DNA from: Nitrospirota bacterium
GTDB taxonomy: Bacteria > Nitrospirota > Nitrospiria > Nitrospirales > UBA8639
Reading direction: 5' to 3'
DNA length: 35,172 bases
Assembly (NCBI GenBank): GCA_027623995.1
Contig: JAQBUF010000036.1
Span: 1 to 35,172, forward strand
Position 1 is the stretch's first letter. Every line of letters begins with the position of its first letter. The translations under genes and the position numbers were made by a program. This document shows, in pieces, positions 19,842 to 28,707 of this stretch. The notes under the pieces are model-generated. The model worked only from the letters and a program-made list of their open reading frames with translations. It searched no databases and was not told the origin of the DNA.

Positions 19842-20048
19842 TTGTTGCCTAGCCAAAGAAATTTCTGTTTCCCATTTTTCCCATGCATCGGAAGGAGACA
19901 TGGTTAGGGCCTTCCACCGTTCATAGATCCAAGGATAAGGCTCAAATTGGTATGCGAGATTCGTACATAAGAATACAATCCCAAAACCTACAGCTAGACT
20001 CTTATTGACAGGTCTGGCAAGTTTTTTTAAGCTAGGGATGAAAACCAA
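19821..20048 (-). CDS. Possible small membrane protein, unrecognised
   Basis: A 75-codon frame starting with TTG at 20048 encodes a basic N-terminus, one hydrophobic segment (SLAVGFGIVFLCTNLAY, about 17-33) and a tryptophan-rich amphipathic tail. The composition is protein-like and the frame is not a shadow of a gene, since the spacer between nuoN and the toxin-antitoxin pair is otherwise empty. Against it: no clear ribosome binding site, a TTG start, overlap with the end of nuoN, and no family I recognise. It may be a real orphan or chance. Confidence 0.25.
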   Translation of the reverse strand: MVFIPSLKKLARPVNKSLAVGFGIVFLCTNLAYQFEPYPWIYERWKALTMSPSDAWEKWETEISLARQQLWERQG

Positions 20049-22562: not shown

Positions 22563-23222
22563 ATGAAATTCTACGCCGTCCGAGTGGGTCGTTCACCGGG
22601 AATTTATACCTCATGGGATGTTTGTGTGTCGCAGGTAAAAGGGTATCCTGGGGCGGTCTTTAAATCCTTCAAATCCAAAGCTGAGGCGCAATCGTTTCTG
22701 GATGTTGATGCAGCTGAACCCACGCTTGATATTGGGACGGATGGATCGTCTAAGTCATCCACGGCAGTAGATATCTGGGTGGATGGGTCTTGTATTCATA
22801 ATGGCGGAGATGACATGCAATTAGGCTGGGGCTATCTCATTCTCAAAGAGGATCGTGAGCTCCATCGTGCCAGTGGAAATGATATTCCCGAAGAAGCCCG
22901 GCAACACCGCAACGTGGCCGGAGAAATACAGGCAGTGTTGAAAGCCTTAGATTGGTGTCATGCCCAGGGTATTCCTAGTGCAACGATTTATTACGATTAT
23001 CAAGGATTAGCAGAATGGGTGAAAGGTTTTTGGAAGGCAAAAACACCGTTCACGCAGGCCTATGTAGCAACAGTGAAGGCCCATGGGATGGATCTCCGTT
23101 GGGGAAAGATCTTAGCTCATTCTGGAGAGAAGTACAACGAGATCGTTGATCAATTAGCCCGTGAGGCAGCACGGGCAGGAGCGGGAGTGCGTGAAACTGG
23201 AAATGGAAGGGGAGTAAAGTGA
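22563..23222 (+). CDS. rnhA: Type 1 ribonuclease H with N-terminal hybrid-binding domain
   Basis: The 219-residue protein has two domains. Residues 1-48 are the RNase H1 hybrid-binding (viroplasmin-like) domain: KFYAVRVGRSPGIYTSWDVC, then YPGAVFKSFKSKAEAQSFL. Residues about 68-204 are the catalytic domain. The acidic catalytic residues are Asp74 (VDGSC), Glu121 (GEIQAV), Asp145 (YYDYQG) and Asp196 (IVDQLA), with His187 in the flexible AHSGEKYNE loop. It removes RNA from RNA-DNA hybrids (R-loops, primers). This two-domain layout is typical of eukaryotic RNase H1 and of some bacteria. The last dozen residues are encoded by one arm of a heptamer-type inverted repeat, so that tail may not be functional. 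Confidence 0.9.
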   Translation: MKFYAVRVGRSPGIYTSWDVCVSQVKGYPGAVFKSFKSKAEAQSFLDVDAAEPTLDIGTDGSSKSSTAVDIWVDGSCIHNGGDDMQLGWGYLILKEDRELHRASGNDIPEEARQHRNVAGEIQAVLKALDWCHAQGIPSATIYYDYQGLAEWVKGFWKAKTPFTQAYVATVKAHGMDLRWGKILAHSGEKYNEIVDQLAREAARAGAGVRETGNGRGVK

Positions 23223-23298: not shown

Positions 23299-24288
23299 CT
23301 ACAGCTTGCCTTCGCCTTTGAGATATTTTCGAAATCGCCCCATCAATTCTTCGCCCAACACCCCGACGGCAGGTTTTTCCTTTGTCATGAATTCTTTAAT
23401 TTCAGAAAGGCGTTGTTCGGCTTGATCGTTGCCTTTGAGCCGTTTGACTTTGTGAATGGCATCATCGAAGGCGTCGAAGGTGAGTTCTTGATAGCCAAAA
23501 GCGCGAATGCGTTTTACGGCTTTCATCATGGCCTCATTTCGGAATACTGTGAGGTGGTCAGAGTCAATTTCTTTTAACCCTAATTTTCTCGCGCGACGTT
23601 CAGCAGCTTTCCGAATGCCGCTACGGACAAAGTCTGGTGACGTATTCAATCGTTTCCAGGCTTCATCGTTCCAGCTGACTTGTTCCTGGGGGGATTCCCA
23701 AATTTTTGTGAGTGTGTGTTCATCGATGACGGTGAGCCCAGATTCACGTGCTAAATCTTCCGCATCATGTTTAAGCATGTCGGTCACAAATTCAAGCGCG
23801 ATGGGAGGAGAGTCTTTGATTTTGTCACGCAACATCTCTTGAGCACCCTCGGTCCATTCGAGAGGCGTGAGGGCTTCACCAGTTTGTTCCCCCATGGATT
23901 CAACTTTTTCAAACAGATCGACATTGACTTCCATGTGCCCACCTTCACGTGCGACTTCTTCCGCAATCTGTTGCGTCATGGCACGCATGAATTCAGGAAC
24001 GGTTTCTAAGCGCTTCTTGGCTTCAGCTGTCCAAGGCAATCGACCTTTGGCCATTTGATCGGCGGCTTCCGCCATGCCGGCTTCACCTCCCATCCCTCCC
24101 ATCATTTGGGCTTTGAATTGATCAAGCAGTTCACCTGTGATGACTTCTACGCCCAATTCTCCAGCTTTTTTTTCCGCTAATCGTTTCACCATCCCGCGAA
24201 GAAAAATAGGAGCCCGCTCTATTCGTTGAAGGGCATCCGGGGTCCAGGTTGGGGTGGAGGCGTTGGATGTAGATTCTGAAGTACTCAT
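23299..24288 (-). CDS. Tandem PCP_red-domain protein (four repeats)
   Basis: The 329-residue protein consists mainly of four tryptophan-anchored repeats starting at Trp15, Trp86, Trp145 and Trp206. Each reads roughly W-T/N-x-E-A-x-x-R-L-x-x-x-P-x-F-x-R, then an alpha-helix rich in A/E/R and a short I/V-rich strand. This matches the PCP_red domain (the small C-terminal domain of light-independent protochlorophyllide reductase subunit B), known also as stand-alone copies in non-phototrophs. No nitrogenase-like catalytic part or chlorophyll genes are here, so it is not a chlorophyll enzyme. No cysteines are present. The function is unknown. It starts 14 bp after the HU/IHF gene with an AGGA ribosome binding site. 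Confidence 0.75.
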   Translation of the reverse strand: MSTSESTSNASTPTWTPDALQRIERAPIFLRGMVKRLAEKKAGELGVEVITGELLDQFKAQMMGGMGGEAGMAEAADQMAKGRLPWTAEAKKRLETVPEFMRAMTQQIAEEVAREGGHMEVNVDLFEKVESMGEQTGEALTPLEWTEGAQEMLRDKIKDSPPIALEFVTDMLKHDAEDLARESGLTVIDEHTLTKIWESPQEQVSWNDEAWKRLNTSPDFVRSGIRKAAERRARKLGLKEIDSDHLTVFRNEAMMKAVKRIRAFGYQELTFDAFDDAIHKVKRLKGNDQAEQRLSEIKEFMTKEKPAVGVLGEELMGRFRKYLKGEGKL

Positions 24289-24302: not shown

Positions 24303-24584
24303 CTATTCTCTATTGAGCAATTCTTTAATTTCTTTTCCTGCCTTAAAAAATGGCATCCGTTTTTCTGGAACGGCAACAGTCTCCCCTGTTTTGGGGTTTC
24401 GCCCATCTTTGGTTCGACGAATTCGTAGGCGGAAACTCCCGAATCCGCGGATTTCAGTTTTTTCCCCCTTTTGCAAGGCATCGCGGATAGAGTCAAAAAT
24501 GCAGTTCACAACTTTTTCTGCATCCCGCCGACTCAACGCCGTGGCTTTTTCCGTGACTTTTTCAATCAAGTGCGCTTTGGTCAT
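24303..24584 (-). CDS. HU/IHF-family DNA-bending protein
   Basis: The 93-residue protein has the full histone-like fold: MTKAHLIEKV at the N-terminus, the IRGFGSFRLRIRR strand, the DNA-intercalating arm with GRNPKTGE, and the KAGKEIKELL C-terminal helix. It is closer to IHF-type than HU in the FGSFRLR region, but which subunit cannot be told. The start is the ATG at 24584 with AAGGAG upstream; a longer in-frame opening to 24656 lacks family similarity. Placement of an IHF-type gene downstream of rpsA recalls rpsA-ihfB in proteobacteria, although here sppA lies between. Confidence 0.92.
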   Translation of the reverse strand: MTKAHLIEKVTEKATALSRRDAEKVVNCIFDSIRDALQKGEKTEIRGFGSFRLRIRRTKDGRNPKTGETVAVPEKRMPFFKAGKEIKELLNRE

Positions 24585-24665: not shown

Positions 24666-25559
24666 TTATAATGCCATGAAATACATGAGATTTAGGCCGG
24701 TTTTGATAGGCAGCCCTACAGCCTCCCCTAAAAATCGATTTCCTAAAAATTCCTGCAAGGAAAATGGCTTTTGGGTTTCAACTACATACGGATGTTCTTT
24801 CATCCCACTCATATCAGCGGCAAGTTTGATTGCTTGGTGGAGGTCGCCAAGTTCATCGACCAGTAACACATCTTTTGCTTGTTGTCCTGTGAAGATTCGA
24901 CCATCAGCCAGAATTTCGACATCCGCAACATCCAACGACCGACCATCGGCCACGGCTTCGATAAATTGACGGTGAGCATCATCCATCACGGTTTGCAAAT
25001 ATTGTCGCTCATCATCACTCATGGTTCGAAAGGGAGAGCCCACATCTTTATATCGCCCACTTTTGATGACGGTATTGCGGACGCCAATTTTTTCCATGAG
25101 GTCTTCGAAATTGGCTAATTGCATGATGACCCCAATGCTTCCAGTCAATGTGCCTGGATTGGCCAAAATGCGATCCGAGGCGACAGCGATATAGTAGCCA
25201 CCGGATGCCGCAACGGTACCCATCGATGTTACGATGGTTTTATGATTGTCTTTTCGAACCCGCTTTACCGCATTATAGATTTCTTGTGAGGGCGCCACTC
25301 CCCCGCCAGGACTATCAATGCGAATGACAATGGCTTTGACCAAGGGGTCCTCACCATATTTTTGAAGTTCACTGACCGTGGTGTGGGAATCAAGAATGGG
25401 CCCTTGAATTCTGACGAGGGCAATGCGTTCTTGTCCGATCCCTGCTAGGTCAGGCAGCAAACCTTTACCGATCATGGTCAACAACAATGCCCCCGCCAGC
25501 ATCCAAAAAATGCGACGCCAGCGAGAGGATTTCGGCTTTGTTGCAGTGTCTTCAGACAT
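24666..25559 (-). CDS. sppA: Signal peptide peptidase SppA, S49 family
   Basis: This 297-residue membrane-anchored serine protease degrades cleaved signal peptides. It has a cytoplasmic basic start (SSRWRR), one transmembrane helix at about 17-35, then the protease domain. The IDSPGGGV oxyanion loop is at 81-88, the nucleophile is Ser119 in VAASGGYY, and the general base is Lys171 in SGRYKDVGSP. The length matches the short (single-domain) SppA that assembles as an octamer. It lies 23 bp after rpsA on the same strand. Confidence 0.93.
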   Translation of the reverse strand: MSEDTATKPKSSRWRRIFWMLAGALLLTMIGKGLLPDLAGIGQERIALVRIQGPILDSHTTVSELQKYGEDPLVKAIVIRIDSPGGGVAPSQEIYNAVKRVRKDNHKTIVTSMGTVAASGGYYIAVASDRILANPGTLTGSIGVIMQLANFEDLMEKIGVRNTVIKSGRYKDVGSPFRTMSDDERQYLQTVMDDAHRQFIEAVADGRSLDVADVEILADGRIFTGQQAKDVLLVDELGDLHQAIKLAADMSGMKEHPYVVETQKPFSLQEFLGNRFLGEAVGLPIKTGLNLMYFMAL

Positions 25560-25582: not shown

Positions 25583-27295
25583 CTACTCACTTCCTTGTTC
25601 GGTCGCAGCTTCTTTGTCTTGTGCGGCTCGTCCGAGGCTTTGATCGAATTCCACTTGCCCACTATTATAGGTTTCGAGGTTCTTGGTATCTGACTCCTGT
25701 GAATGTTCGCGTACACTCAAGGCGATTTTTCGTTCTTCACAATCAACTTTGACAACCTTCGCGGTAATGGATTCCCCAATTTTAAAGAGTTCTTCCAATT
25801 TACCTTGGCTATCTTGGCCGGTCTCACTAATGTGAATGAGCCCCTCCACATCGCCCTCTAACTCGATGAATACGCCAAAGTCTGCGATTTTTGCAATGGT
25901 GCCAGTTGCTGTTCCGCCGACTTGATAGCGGGAAGGAATTTCGGTTTCCCAAGGATCTGACGTCAGCTGTTTGAACCCAAGGGATAAGCGTTCTTTTTCT
26001 TTATCGATTCGCAAGATAACTGCTTCCACTCGTTGGGCTTTTTTGAATAATTCAGACGGATGTTTGATGTGCTTGGTCCATGACATATCCGAAATATGAA
26101 TCAGGCCATCAATGCCTTCATCTAGGCCCACAAATGCGCCAAAGTCGGTGACGCTTTTGACTTTACCTTCAATACGAGTCCCAACAGGATAGCGCGATTG
26201 AATAATGTCCCATGGGTTTGGGGCCGTTTGTTTCATGCCAAGAGAAATTTTGCGTCCCTGTTGATCAACATGCAGGACTTGGGCATCAATGGCATCCCCA
26301 ACCGCGACCACACGCGATGGATGTCGCACTTCATGAGTCCAGGACATTTCCGACACGTGGACAAGCCCTTCGACCCCAGGTTCTAATTCCACGAATGCTC
26401 CGTAATCAGTCAAGCTGACAACTTTCCCTGCCACACGCGAGCTTTCGGGGTATTTGGCCGCAATTTCCATCCATGGATCGGCCGTCTTCTGCTTTAAGCC
26501 GAGAGAAATTCTGCCGGACTCCTTGTCATATTTCAGAACGAGGACTGCTAAGCGATCTCCGACAGAGAACATGTCAGAAGGATGCCCAACTCGTCCCCAG
26601 GAAATATCTGTGATGTGCAAGAGTCCATCAATGCCTCCAAGGTCTAGGAACGCGCCGTAGTCCGTAATATTTTTGACGGCACCTTCGATTAACTGCCCTT
26701 CGGCTAAGGTCTCTAAGGTCGTTTTGCGCTTTTTGTCGCGTGTTTCTTCTAGCAAGGCTCGTCGTGAGATGACGACATTTCCACGGCGATGGTTAATCTT
26801 AATAATTTTGAAGGGGAAGGTTTTCCCAACGAGGCTATCTAAATCTCTGACTGGCGTTAAATCGATTTGAGAGCCAGGGAGGAAGGCTTTGACCCCGATA
26901 TCGACCATCATGCCGCCTTTGATTCTGGATACGACTTTTCCTTGCACTTCTTTTTCTTCTGTGTGGGAAACCTCTAGCTCTTCCCATATTTTCATTTTGT
27001 CCGCTTTTTCTTTGGACAAAACTAGATTCCCATCAGAATCCTCGCGCTGTTCAATATAGACCTGTAGCTTGTCTCCTATCGCCATGGTGGGAAGTTCGTC
27101 AGGAAGGAACTGATTCATCGGAATCACACCTTCTGACTTATAACCAATATCCACAATCACCCGGTCTTTTTGGATAGCCACCACGCGACCTTCGGTAATG
27201 GTGCCTTCTTCAAAATTCCGGAAGGTTTCTTCATACAGGGCGGCTAATGTTGCCTGATCAAATTCTTCAACAATGGGGTTAGACATAGTACTCAT
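25583..27295 (-). CDS. rpsA: 30S ribosomal protein S1
   Basis: The 570-residue protein contains six S1 RNA-binding repeats, beginning near residues 34, 118, 204, 289, 376 and 463. Repeats 3-6 are the most regular (TDYGAF or TDFGAF, then GLLHI/GLVHV/GLIHI, and a DMSW-type turn). The first two are the divergent ribosome-binding type, as in proteobacterial S1. S1 brings mRNA to the 30S subunit, which matters where ribosome binding sites are weak, as at several genes here. The ATG at 27295 has AAGGA upstream. Length is slightly above the E. coli protein. Confidence 0.97.
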   Translation of the reverse strand: MSTMSNPIVEEFDQATLAALYEETFRNFEEGTITEGRVVAIQKDRVIVDIGYKSEGVIPMNQFLPDELPTMAIGDKLQVYIEQREDSDGNLVLSKEKADKMKIWEELEVSHTEEKEVQGKVVSRIKGGMMVDIGVKAFLPGSQIDLTPVRDLDSLVGKTFPFKIIKINHRRGNVVISRRALLEETRDKKRKTTLETLAEGQLIEGAVKNITDYGAFLDLGGIDGLLHITDISWGRVGHPSDMFSVGDRLAVLVLKYDKESGRISLGLKQKTADPWMEIAAKYPESSRVAGKVVSLTDYGAFVELEPGVEGLVHVSEMSWTHEVRHPSRVVAVGDAIDAQVLHVDQQGRKISLGMKQTAPNPWDIIQSRYPVGTRIEGKVKSVTDFGAFVGLDEGIDGLIHISDMSWTKHIKHPSELFKKAQRVEAVILRIDKEKERLSLGFKQLTSDPWETEIPSRYQVGGTATGTIAKIADFGVFIELEGDVEGLIHISETGQDSQGKLEELFKIGESITAKVVKVDCEERKIALSVREHSQESDTKNLETYNSGQVEFDQSLGRAAQDKEAATEQGSE

Positions 27296-27382: not shown

Positions 27383-28024
27383 TTATAATGCCGGTGTTGT
27401 TGATTGTCTCACGCAACGTATATCAGCAATCCGGTCCATAATGGTCTGACTAATATGTGTGTATAGCTCTCTTCCTTGATACTTTTCCATGTCTCGGCGA
27501 AAGTCTAAAGGCTTTCCAAAATTTACCGATACCGGATGCATTCGCAACCAGGAGGCACCCATTGGTAGCACCTGAAACGTTCCGTCAATGTAGACAGGAA
27601 CAACAGGGCATTGAGCCTCTGCTACTATCATTCCAACACCAGGCTTCCCCGCCTGAAGGTTTCCGTTCGACGTTCGAGTGCCTTCAGGAAAAATGACAAC
27701 GGTCTTACCTGCTTTCAGCATGTCTACGGCATCCTGAAAGGCTTTTCGATCCCAGCGTGTATGGTGCAATGGAATCCAGCCTATGGAGCGTAGCATCCAG
27801 CGCAAGACTGGGTTCGTGAACAAATTGGCTCGACCTAAAAAGAAAAGACGTCGCCGTACCGCACACCCGAGCAAGGGAATATCCGTATAGCTGGCATGGT
27901 TGGCAGCTATGAGGACCCCACCCAATTGGGGAATATGTTCTACGCCATTCGTTCGATATCGAAGAAAGAGGTGACTCAGGCTTCGACAGAGGACCCACAA
28001 GATCCCATAAATGATTGTGCTCAC
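27383..28024 (-). CDS. plsC: 1-acyl-sn-glycerol-3-phosphate acyltransferase
   Basis: This 213-residue PlsC-type acyltransferase transfers the second acyl chain onto lysophosphatidic acid. Motif I is NHASYTD (His43, Asp48), the catalytic dyad. Motif III is FPEGTR at 112-117, which binds the glycerol phosphate. There is a hydrophobic N-terminal segment for membrane association. Its ATG overlaps the cmk stop (ATGA), so the two are translationally coupled. cmk-plsC-rpsA is a recurrent order in bacteria. Confidence 0.92.
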   Translation of the reverse strand: MSTIIYGILWVLCRSLSHLFLRYRTNGVEHIPQLGGVLIAANHASYTDIPLLGCAVRRRLFFLGRANLFTNPVLRWMLRSIGWIPLHHTRWDRKAFQDAVDMLKAGKTVVIFPEGTRTSNGNLQAGKPGVGMIVAEAQCPVVPVYIDGTFQVLPMGASWLRMHPVSVNFGKPLDFRRDMEKYQGRELYTHISQTIMDRIADIRCVRQSTTPAL

Positions 28025-28707
28025 AGGCGAGCCGTAATTGACTCCATCATTGTGGCCACGACTTCATCAACCGTCATTGGTGAGGAATCAATCACGAGGG
28101 CATCAGTAGCCGGAACTAAGGGTGCGATATTCCGCGATTGGTCGCGCGTATCACGATCGTGAATTTGGTGTCGGATATCTTCCTGGTTTCCATCATGCCC
28201 TGCTTGACGGTGTTCTTGGTATCGTCGCGAAGTACGGGTATTGAGATCGGCATTCAAAAAAAACTTCACTTCAGCATTGGGAAACACGCGAGTTCCCATA
28301 TCTCGACCTTCCGCAACAATACCGCCAGCTTGGCCAAATTGTTGTTGAATCGGTAGCAACCATTCTCTCACCTCAGGCATCGCAGCAACGGTTGATGCGA
28401 CTCGAGTGACATCAGGAGCACGGAGAAACGGAGTGACATCCTGGGAGCCGACGATCGTACGAGTAGTATGATCCTCTAATGTTACATGCAGGTCCATGTG
28501 TTGCAAGAGATCTTTCAGCGCAACAGGGTTTGAACAATCAATCCCTGTGGTATTGGCCTTCCAGGCTACGGCACGATACAACGCACCGGTATCCAAATAG
28601 ATGTATCCCAACTGAGCGGCCAAAGCGCGAGCAGTCGTACTTTTTCCTGCCCCGGCTGGACCGTCAATAGTAACGACTAAACGTCGCGTATTGGCTGACG
28701 CGTTCAC
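28021..28707 (-). CDS. cmk: Cytidylate kinase
   Basis: This 228-residue nucleoside monophosphate kinase phosphorylates CMP and dCMP with ATP. The P-loop is GPAGAGKST at 16-24, followed by the Cmk-specific YLDTGALYRAVAWK segment and the substrate-loop GGIVAEGRDMGTRVFPNAEVKFFL. The C-terminal DRDTRDQSRNIAPL lid arginines are present. It lies 33 bp after aroA and overlaps plsC by four bases. Confidence 0.95.
   Translation of the reverse strand: MNASANTRRLVVTIDGPAGAGKSTTARALAAQLGYIYLDTGALYRAVAWKANTTGIDCSNPVALKDLLQHMDLHVTLEDHTTRTIVGSQDVTPFLRAPDVTRVASTVAAMPEVREWLLPIQQQFGQAGGIVAEGRDMGTRVFPNAEVKFFLNADLNTRTSRRYQEHRQAGHDGNQEDIRHQIHDRDTRDQSRNIAPLVPATDALVIDSSPMTVDEVVATMMESITARL

Follow-up and report, generated by a model that had tools for sequence, protein, structure and literature searches.

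One gene of the window – the whole 35,172-nucleotide stretch of Nitrospirota DNA analysed here – encodes a protein, PCP4, that is built of four PCP_red repeats and a conserved tail, and whose partnership with a radical SAM protein bearing the same domain (rSAM-PCP) is well supported. We read PCP4, with a probability of about 0.45, as a four-module scaffold or carrier that would present rSAM-PCP with its substrate, probably a tetrapyrrole of the heme type. Repeats, gene linkages, fusions and distribution are directly observed, and PCP4 and the other PCP_red proteins likely form one functional set. The PCP_red domain itself was already known; new are the four-repeat architecture, the fusion to a NirJ/AhbD-like radical SAM protein and the linkage to an oxidase. 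The domain is filed under a chlorophyll enzyme – 'PCP reductase family protein' being an existing database label – yet it is carried by all 81 genomes of the class (Nitrospiria) that were drawn.

Table 1. PCP4 and its upstream genes, with positions in the window, and the other PCP_red genes of the same genome (R, PCP_red repeat)
Feature	Position	Strand	Remarks
PCP4	23299..24288	-	329 aa, ATG start; four PCP_red repeats and conserved tail
R1	24112..24246	-	51.7 bits, over Pfam cut-off
R2	23905..24033	-	47.5 bits, over Pfam cut-off
R3, degenerate	23707..23856	-	22 bits, E 6e-4, below Pfam cut-off
R4	23548..23673	-	47.6 bits, over Pfam cut-off
R4 end and C-terminal tail	23302..23553	-	residues 246-329; predicted to fold with R4
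HU/IHF-family gene	24303..24584	-	directly upstream of PCP4; start taken as ATG at 24584
SppA-type peptidase S49	24666..25559	-	Pfam and synteny
rpsA, S1 domains	25583..27295	-	Pfam and synteny
Acyltransferase	27383..28024	-	same operon; Pfam and synteny
Cytidylate kinase (cmk)	28021..28707	-	same operon; Pfam and synteny
Ribbon-PCP2			two CXXC pairs (ribbon by eye, no Pfam match there), two PCP_red repeats; adjoins Mrp/ApbC-type ATPase
Usp-PCP			686 aa; two Usp domains, rubredoxin-like ribbon (19.7 bits, cut-off 26.5), three PCP_red repeats
rSAM-PCP			radical SAM/SPASM with one C-terminal PCP_red; followed by CopD-like gene (28.2 bits, cut-off 32.1)
Oxidase-linked PCP2			short protein, two PCP_red; shares cluster with DUF420 and bd-like oxidase gene

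PF08369 (PCP_red) is the sole Pfam family found in PCP4 at an E-value of 0.001, the whole protein scoring 149.5 bits against a curated cut-off of 32.5 bits that three of the four repeats, R3 being the exception, also pass singly. A second profile, trained solely on the eight PCP_red repeats that this genome holds outside PCP4, recovers R1 at 49.2, R2 at 33.2, R3 at 10.1 and R4 at 24.9 bits; when PCP4 is shuffled 1000 times, the highest domain score is 5.0 bits, below all four. A preliminary description, made from the letters of this DNA, had proposed four such repeats anchored on Trp15, Trp86, Trp145 and Trp206, and had staked the proposal on a profile search detecting at least two of them; the repeats hold, and the four tryptophans prove invariant in an alignment of 44 sequences, in which R4 and the helix following it form the densest invariant stretch. 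It was right, too, in seeing neither cysteines nor a nitrogenase-like part in PCP4. Its statement that the repeats make up nearly the whole protein stands for residues ~15–255, while residues 256–329 form an additional conserved helical tail. The acidic and basic repeats that it noted can be assigned – R2 and R3 are acidic, R1, R4 and the tail basic – in a protein whose net character is acidic (pI 5.5). Neither a ligand nor a residue or motif for heme binding was identified in PCP4. A mobile-element or defence reading was rejected: searches against PHROGs and PADLOC at 0.01 found nothing, nor did a plasmid search.

The AlphaFold model of the whole protein has a pLDDT of 72.1 and a pTM of 0.39, and for this reason the arrangement of the modules is left uninterpreted; R4 and the tail are predicted as a single confident unit (pLDDT 87.4, pTM 0.73). 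Two NMR structures of PCP_red (2kru and 2l09, from Asr4154) top the Foldseek lists for PCP4 with a probability of 1.00 but with E-values of 0.011 and 0.11, none falling below 0.001. The model of R4 and the tail aligns with 2kru at a TM-score of 0.75 by target and an rmsd of 1.0 (E 0.011) in Foldseek, and at Z 9.5 over 60 residues and 2.5 Å in VIA, whose superpositions cover mainly residues 1–52 of the model; as modelled, the unit appears to have the fold of the solved PCP_red domains. R4 can also be fitted onto ChlB in 2ynm, a DPOR complex, at 1.2 Å over 50 residues (Z 7.3). By sequence and fold, PCP4 carries the same domain as BchB/ChlB (PF08369; 2kru, 2l09), but it does so in four copies with a tail, and in a genome where no protein passes the BchB model (TIGR01278; best match 40.9 bits, cut-off 490.35 bits) and where matches to that model are limited to positions 409–511 of 512, with no nitrogenase-like catalytic part. 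As far as BchB is concerned, the earlier placing of PCP4 outside any chlorophyll pathway stands.

The window's genome, which is 99.7% complete, holds 12 PCP_red matches across five genes, PCP4 included; Usp-PCP, rSAM-PCP and the CopD-like gene lie together in it, and PCP4 lies elsewhere. All 59 genomes of the relatives search, its own included, carry the domain, with typically 10 to 13 matches per genome in the nearest relatives (exactly 12 in 34 of the 59; range 3 to 14). Across the phylum, PCP_red is present in 106 of 195 genomes drawn, among them the 81 of the class, unlisted genomes without a match being assigned outside the class by list order. The PCP4 tail is present in 88 of the 195: it is missing from one of the 81 genomes of the class and occurs in 8 of the 114 outside it. 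Co-occurrence of the tail with rSAM was discarded as evidence: the rSAM profile matches 85 of the 88 tail-positive genomes and also 92 of the 107 tail-negative ones, and is uninformative here because AhbD-like paralogues match it as well. Openly licensed PMC papers yielded no literature on these PCP_red proteins and no text on the role of PCP_red within DPOR.

What ties PCP4 to rSAM-PCP is gene order and fusion. Deep-branching lineages (Manganitrophus, Troglogloeales and kin) provide eight loci in which PCP4 is flanked by rSAM-PCP and the CopD-like gene; the order Usp-PCP / rSAM-PCP / PCP4 / CopD-like is complete in seven deep Nitrospiria loci and cut at the contig end in the eighth (L073), and L192, which has the same order, may be conspecific with L074 or L075. 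Outside the class, a single 706-residue reading frame in G066 (L149:1006-3126) joins rSAM to a whole PCP4-like C-terminus (positions 7–322 of the PCP4 profile, 342 bits), with Usp-PCP before it and protoporphyrinogen oxidase after it (TIGR00562, 290.7 bits, cut-off 97.85). In three further genomes outside the class (G060, G069 and G204), R4 and the tail are fused to a Usp protein (77–83 bits) that adjoins rSAM-PCP, and in G065 a lone 204-residue frame (L152:4222-4833) combines PCP_red with the PCP4 tail, a bd-like oxidase gene lying 529 bases away on the same strand. The rSAM–PCP4 fusion, this short form and the ChdC-type fusion described below come from one genome each. PCP4 adjoins Mrp and ribbon-PCP2 in four loci (L071, L072, L084 and L154). 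Against the pairing with rSAM stands the fact that most Nitrospirales loci link PCP4 to an HU/IHF gene instead; however, the rSAM link looks the older of the two, because it is also found outside the class, there as a fusion. The simplest reading – drawn from the distribution rather than from a reconstruction of gene order – is an old association of PCP4 with rSAM and Usp, the link to HU/IHF reflecting a later relocation. Separately, a 904-residue frame of Ca. Manganitrophus (L075:1711-4422) combines parts resembling Usp with several copies of PCP_red; three CXXC...CXXC ribbons can be made out in it by eye.

The rSAM-PCP of the window's genome matches NirJ2 (TIGR04055) at 332 bits and AhbD (TIGR04545) at 319.3 bits, short of the 500 bits that both models require, the latter for a heme b synthase; the next match is TIGR04053, of unknown function, at 276 bits. 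All rSAM-PCP proteins tested score 292–332 bits against NirJ2/AhbD, below every NCBIfam cut-off shown, and the AhbD-like genes of the phylum that were tested (425–449 bits) likewise stay below 500. The partner of PCP4 is related to AhbD/NirJ and shares their cluster motifs, but differs in scoring below their cut-offs, in its C-terminal PCP_red and in coexisting with a separate AhbD-like gene in G120, G163 and G182 (AhbD-like/rSAM-PCP loci L184/L179, L188/L180 and L187/L177); since both kinds of gene are present, rSAM-PCP is probably not an ordinary heme b synthase in these three genomes. A tree built from 38 rows (37 different) sets 31 PCP_red rows and one contig-cut row apart from five AhbD-like enzymes (support 99/98); this tree has no true outgroup and a root for drawing only, L129 forms a very long branch, and PCP_red needs two changes on the tree instead of one, the extra being L137, whose sequence stops at a contig edge. 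The motifs CX3CX2C and CX2CX5CX19-21C occur in all 31 PCP_red-bearing rows (30 different) and in 7 and 6, respectively, of the seven rows lacking PCP_red, where the one miss is a row truncated by its contig. PMC10548856 gives the NirJ motifs as CX3CX2C and CX2CX5CX20-21C; the second was searched here with a wider spacing. AhbD-like rows carry both motifs too; the motifs are not specific to heme enzymes and leave the substrate of rSAM-PCP unfixed. Genes reading as hemE by eye adjoin the AhbD-like genes of L185 and L187. In several lineages, a protein of ~240 residues adjoins rSAM-PCP (L178:3054-3842, L182:5557-6288, L183:3167-3880 and L151:5176-5853); its L178 copy has no Pfam match, and all four show, by eye, a FSAHLPVM(A/I)TW-like motif.

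That the substrate would most likely be a heme-type tetrapyrrole is suggested by the places where PCP_red is found, since it forms part of, or adjoins, enzymes acting in protochlorophyllide and heme chemistry. In G082, from another family of the phylum, it is fused to a chlorite dismutase/ChdC-type domain (PF06778, L153:6021-7058, 69.2 bits, cut-off 25; no NCBIfam match at 1e-30) of the ChdC/HemQ–chlorite dismutase family, a domain that PCP4 itself lacks. Oxidase-linked PCP2 occurs in 35 of 40 genomes, and a bd-like gene accompanies it in 27 of the 30 loci fetched, the window's own included and all from a single taxonomic order; the genes are arranged as methyltransferase–DUF420–PCP2–membrane protein–bd-like. 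Of the three misses, L194 and L204 end too early and L209 has 231 bases left. The O-methyltransferase that heads this cluster (L223:3781-4770) has BchU as its best NCBIfam match, at 79.7 against a cut-off of 276.1 bits; among solved structures, many O-methyltransferases outscore the CrtF-related 1x19, which we take to be BchU. Outside the class, 14 rSAM-PCP loci of 4.5 to 12 kb (L145, L146, L148, L149, L151, L156, L177–L183 and L189) include four with a bd-like gene and ten without; the gene is next to rSAM-PCP or one gene away in L177, L179 and L181, and at a greater distance in L151. Within the class, none of 11 larger rSAM-PCP loci (L010, L073–L078, L080, L083, L084 and L192) has one. According to PMC6606698, no canonical heme-copper oxidase is present in the Nitrospira analysed, which may rely on a bd-like oxidase instead, and N. 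moscoviensis has four bd-like copies; with several such copies per Nitrospira genome, some of the adjacency may be due to chance.

The idea that rSAM-PCP is the housekeeping heme b synthase of the window's genome is not supported, as hemE, protoporphyrinogen oxidase and a HemQ/chlorite-dismutase-like gene are all present there, the last with 197.9 bits to PF06778 and 131.5 bits to NF042928 (cut-off 235). But this genome has no ferrochelatase match: PF00762 finds none in any of six genomes from the window's family, five of which are at least 97% complete, whereas it matches in all three genomes tested from other families. In G037 (L160, C2), hemH is flanked by hemE and by an oxidase gene reading by eye as protoporphyrinogen oxidase; in the window's genome (L161, G000:C60), hemE directly adjoins protoporphyrinogen oxidase with no hemH in between.

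Taken as a proposal, PCP4 would serve a conserved set of Nitrospirota genes as its non-catalytic scaffold or carrier subunit, the other members being Usp-PCP with its CXXC ribbons, rSAM-PCP, the CopD-like membrane protein, the Mrp-type Fe-S carrier ATPase with ribbon-PCP2, and oxidase-linked PCP2. PCP_red modules on these separate proteins may bind each other or a common ligand; PCP4 would hold the substrate – most likely a heme-type tetrapyrrole – for rSAM-PCP and hand it over to the membrane, with the invariant, basic R4 and tail as its presumed main contact site. Protein scaffolding, which the preliminary description had also raised, is possible and close to this reading. A more far-reaching version, which we consider unlikely, makes PCP_red a general tetrapyrrole-handling module, the set a pathway for making or loading a modified heme destined for the bd-like oxidases – which in these bacteria seem to take the place of the heme-copper oxidase – and PCP4 a multi-site carrier; if true, the PCP_red set of Nitrospirota would be a previously unrecognised heme-making or heme-loading system.

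A somewhat unlikely alternative dispenses with the ligand altogether and takes PCP_red as a protein docking module, PCP4 then being an adaptor that joins Fe-S and electron-transfer partners (Mrp, the CXXC ribbons and rSAM), in the manner of BchB and BchL in DPOR. It draws on the PCP_red protein encoded beside an Mrp/NUBPL-type ATPase that is weakly related to BchL (25.6 bits, TIGR01281), on the conservation of R4 along its full length, and on the resemblance of the fold to AAA+ lid domains (RuvB, Z up to 7.7, from 7.3, over 53–59 residues), where Z values below 8 may reflect a common helical arrangement; what it leaves unexplained are the PCP_red carriers of tetrapyrrole type, that is, BchB, the NirJ/AhbD-like and the chlorite-dismutase/ChdC-type proteins. 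The substrate carried by PCP4 could also be of another kind: as the SPASM relatives of rSAM-PCP include peptide maturases (mycofactocin 124.7, PqqE 111.7 bits), it may be a peptide, and rSAM-PCP might mature a peptide or protein with PCP4 as substrate holder or as the substrate itself. We regard this as improbable, the NirJ2 and AhbD models scoring highest; a gene for a precursor peptide did not come to notice.

Two further explanations look to the neighbours of PCP4 for its role. The preliminary description had hinted at nucleic-acid scaffolding, and an HU/IHF gene does end directly upstream of PCP4 in 57 of the 73 loci with enough upstream sequence (7 of the 80 loci kept from 87 relatives were dropped from this count), R4 and the tail being basic besides; a nucleic-acid or nucleoid scaffold acting with HU/IHF is nevertheless very improbable, for the gene is absent from the other 16 loci, the deep lineages have an rSAM gene in its place, the remaining upstream genes are varied housekeeping genes, and PCP4, acidic overall, matches no DNA-binding Pfam family at an E-value of 0.001. 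Least probable of all is a stress-response module led by Usp-PCP, with PCP4 as a general chaperone-like scaffold: Usp domains do occur in a linked gene, and a Usp gene adjoins rSAM-PCP in six of the seven loci L177–L183, but this would leave the links to radical SAM, to the ChdC-type domain and to the bd-like oxidase unaccounted for. The scaffold or carrier reading with rSAM-PCP as partner is the one we retain.

The position of PCP4 at the end of a housekeeping operon, beside HU/IHF, is as first described: it is the final gene of aroA–cmk–acyltransferase–rpsA–sppA–HU/IHF–PCP4, its ATG begins 14 bases past the HU/IHF stop, and the order from cmk to PCP4 is preserved in many Nitrospirales loci. 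Promoter and terminator scans gave scores no better than those of shuffles, and at gathering scores the sole Rfam match between positions 20,000 and 26,000 of the window is a tRNA (tRNA-Val). Convergent to PCP4, at positions 22,563–23,222, lies a gene for an RNase H with an N-terminal Cauli_VI domain, which adjoins PCP4 in many relatives as well.
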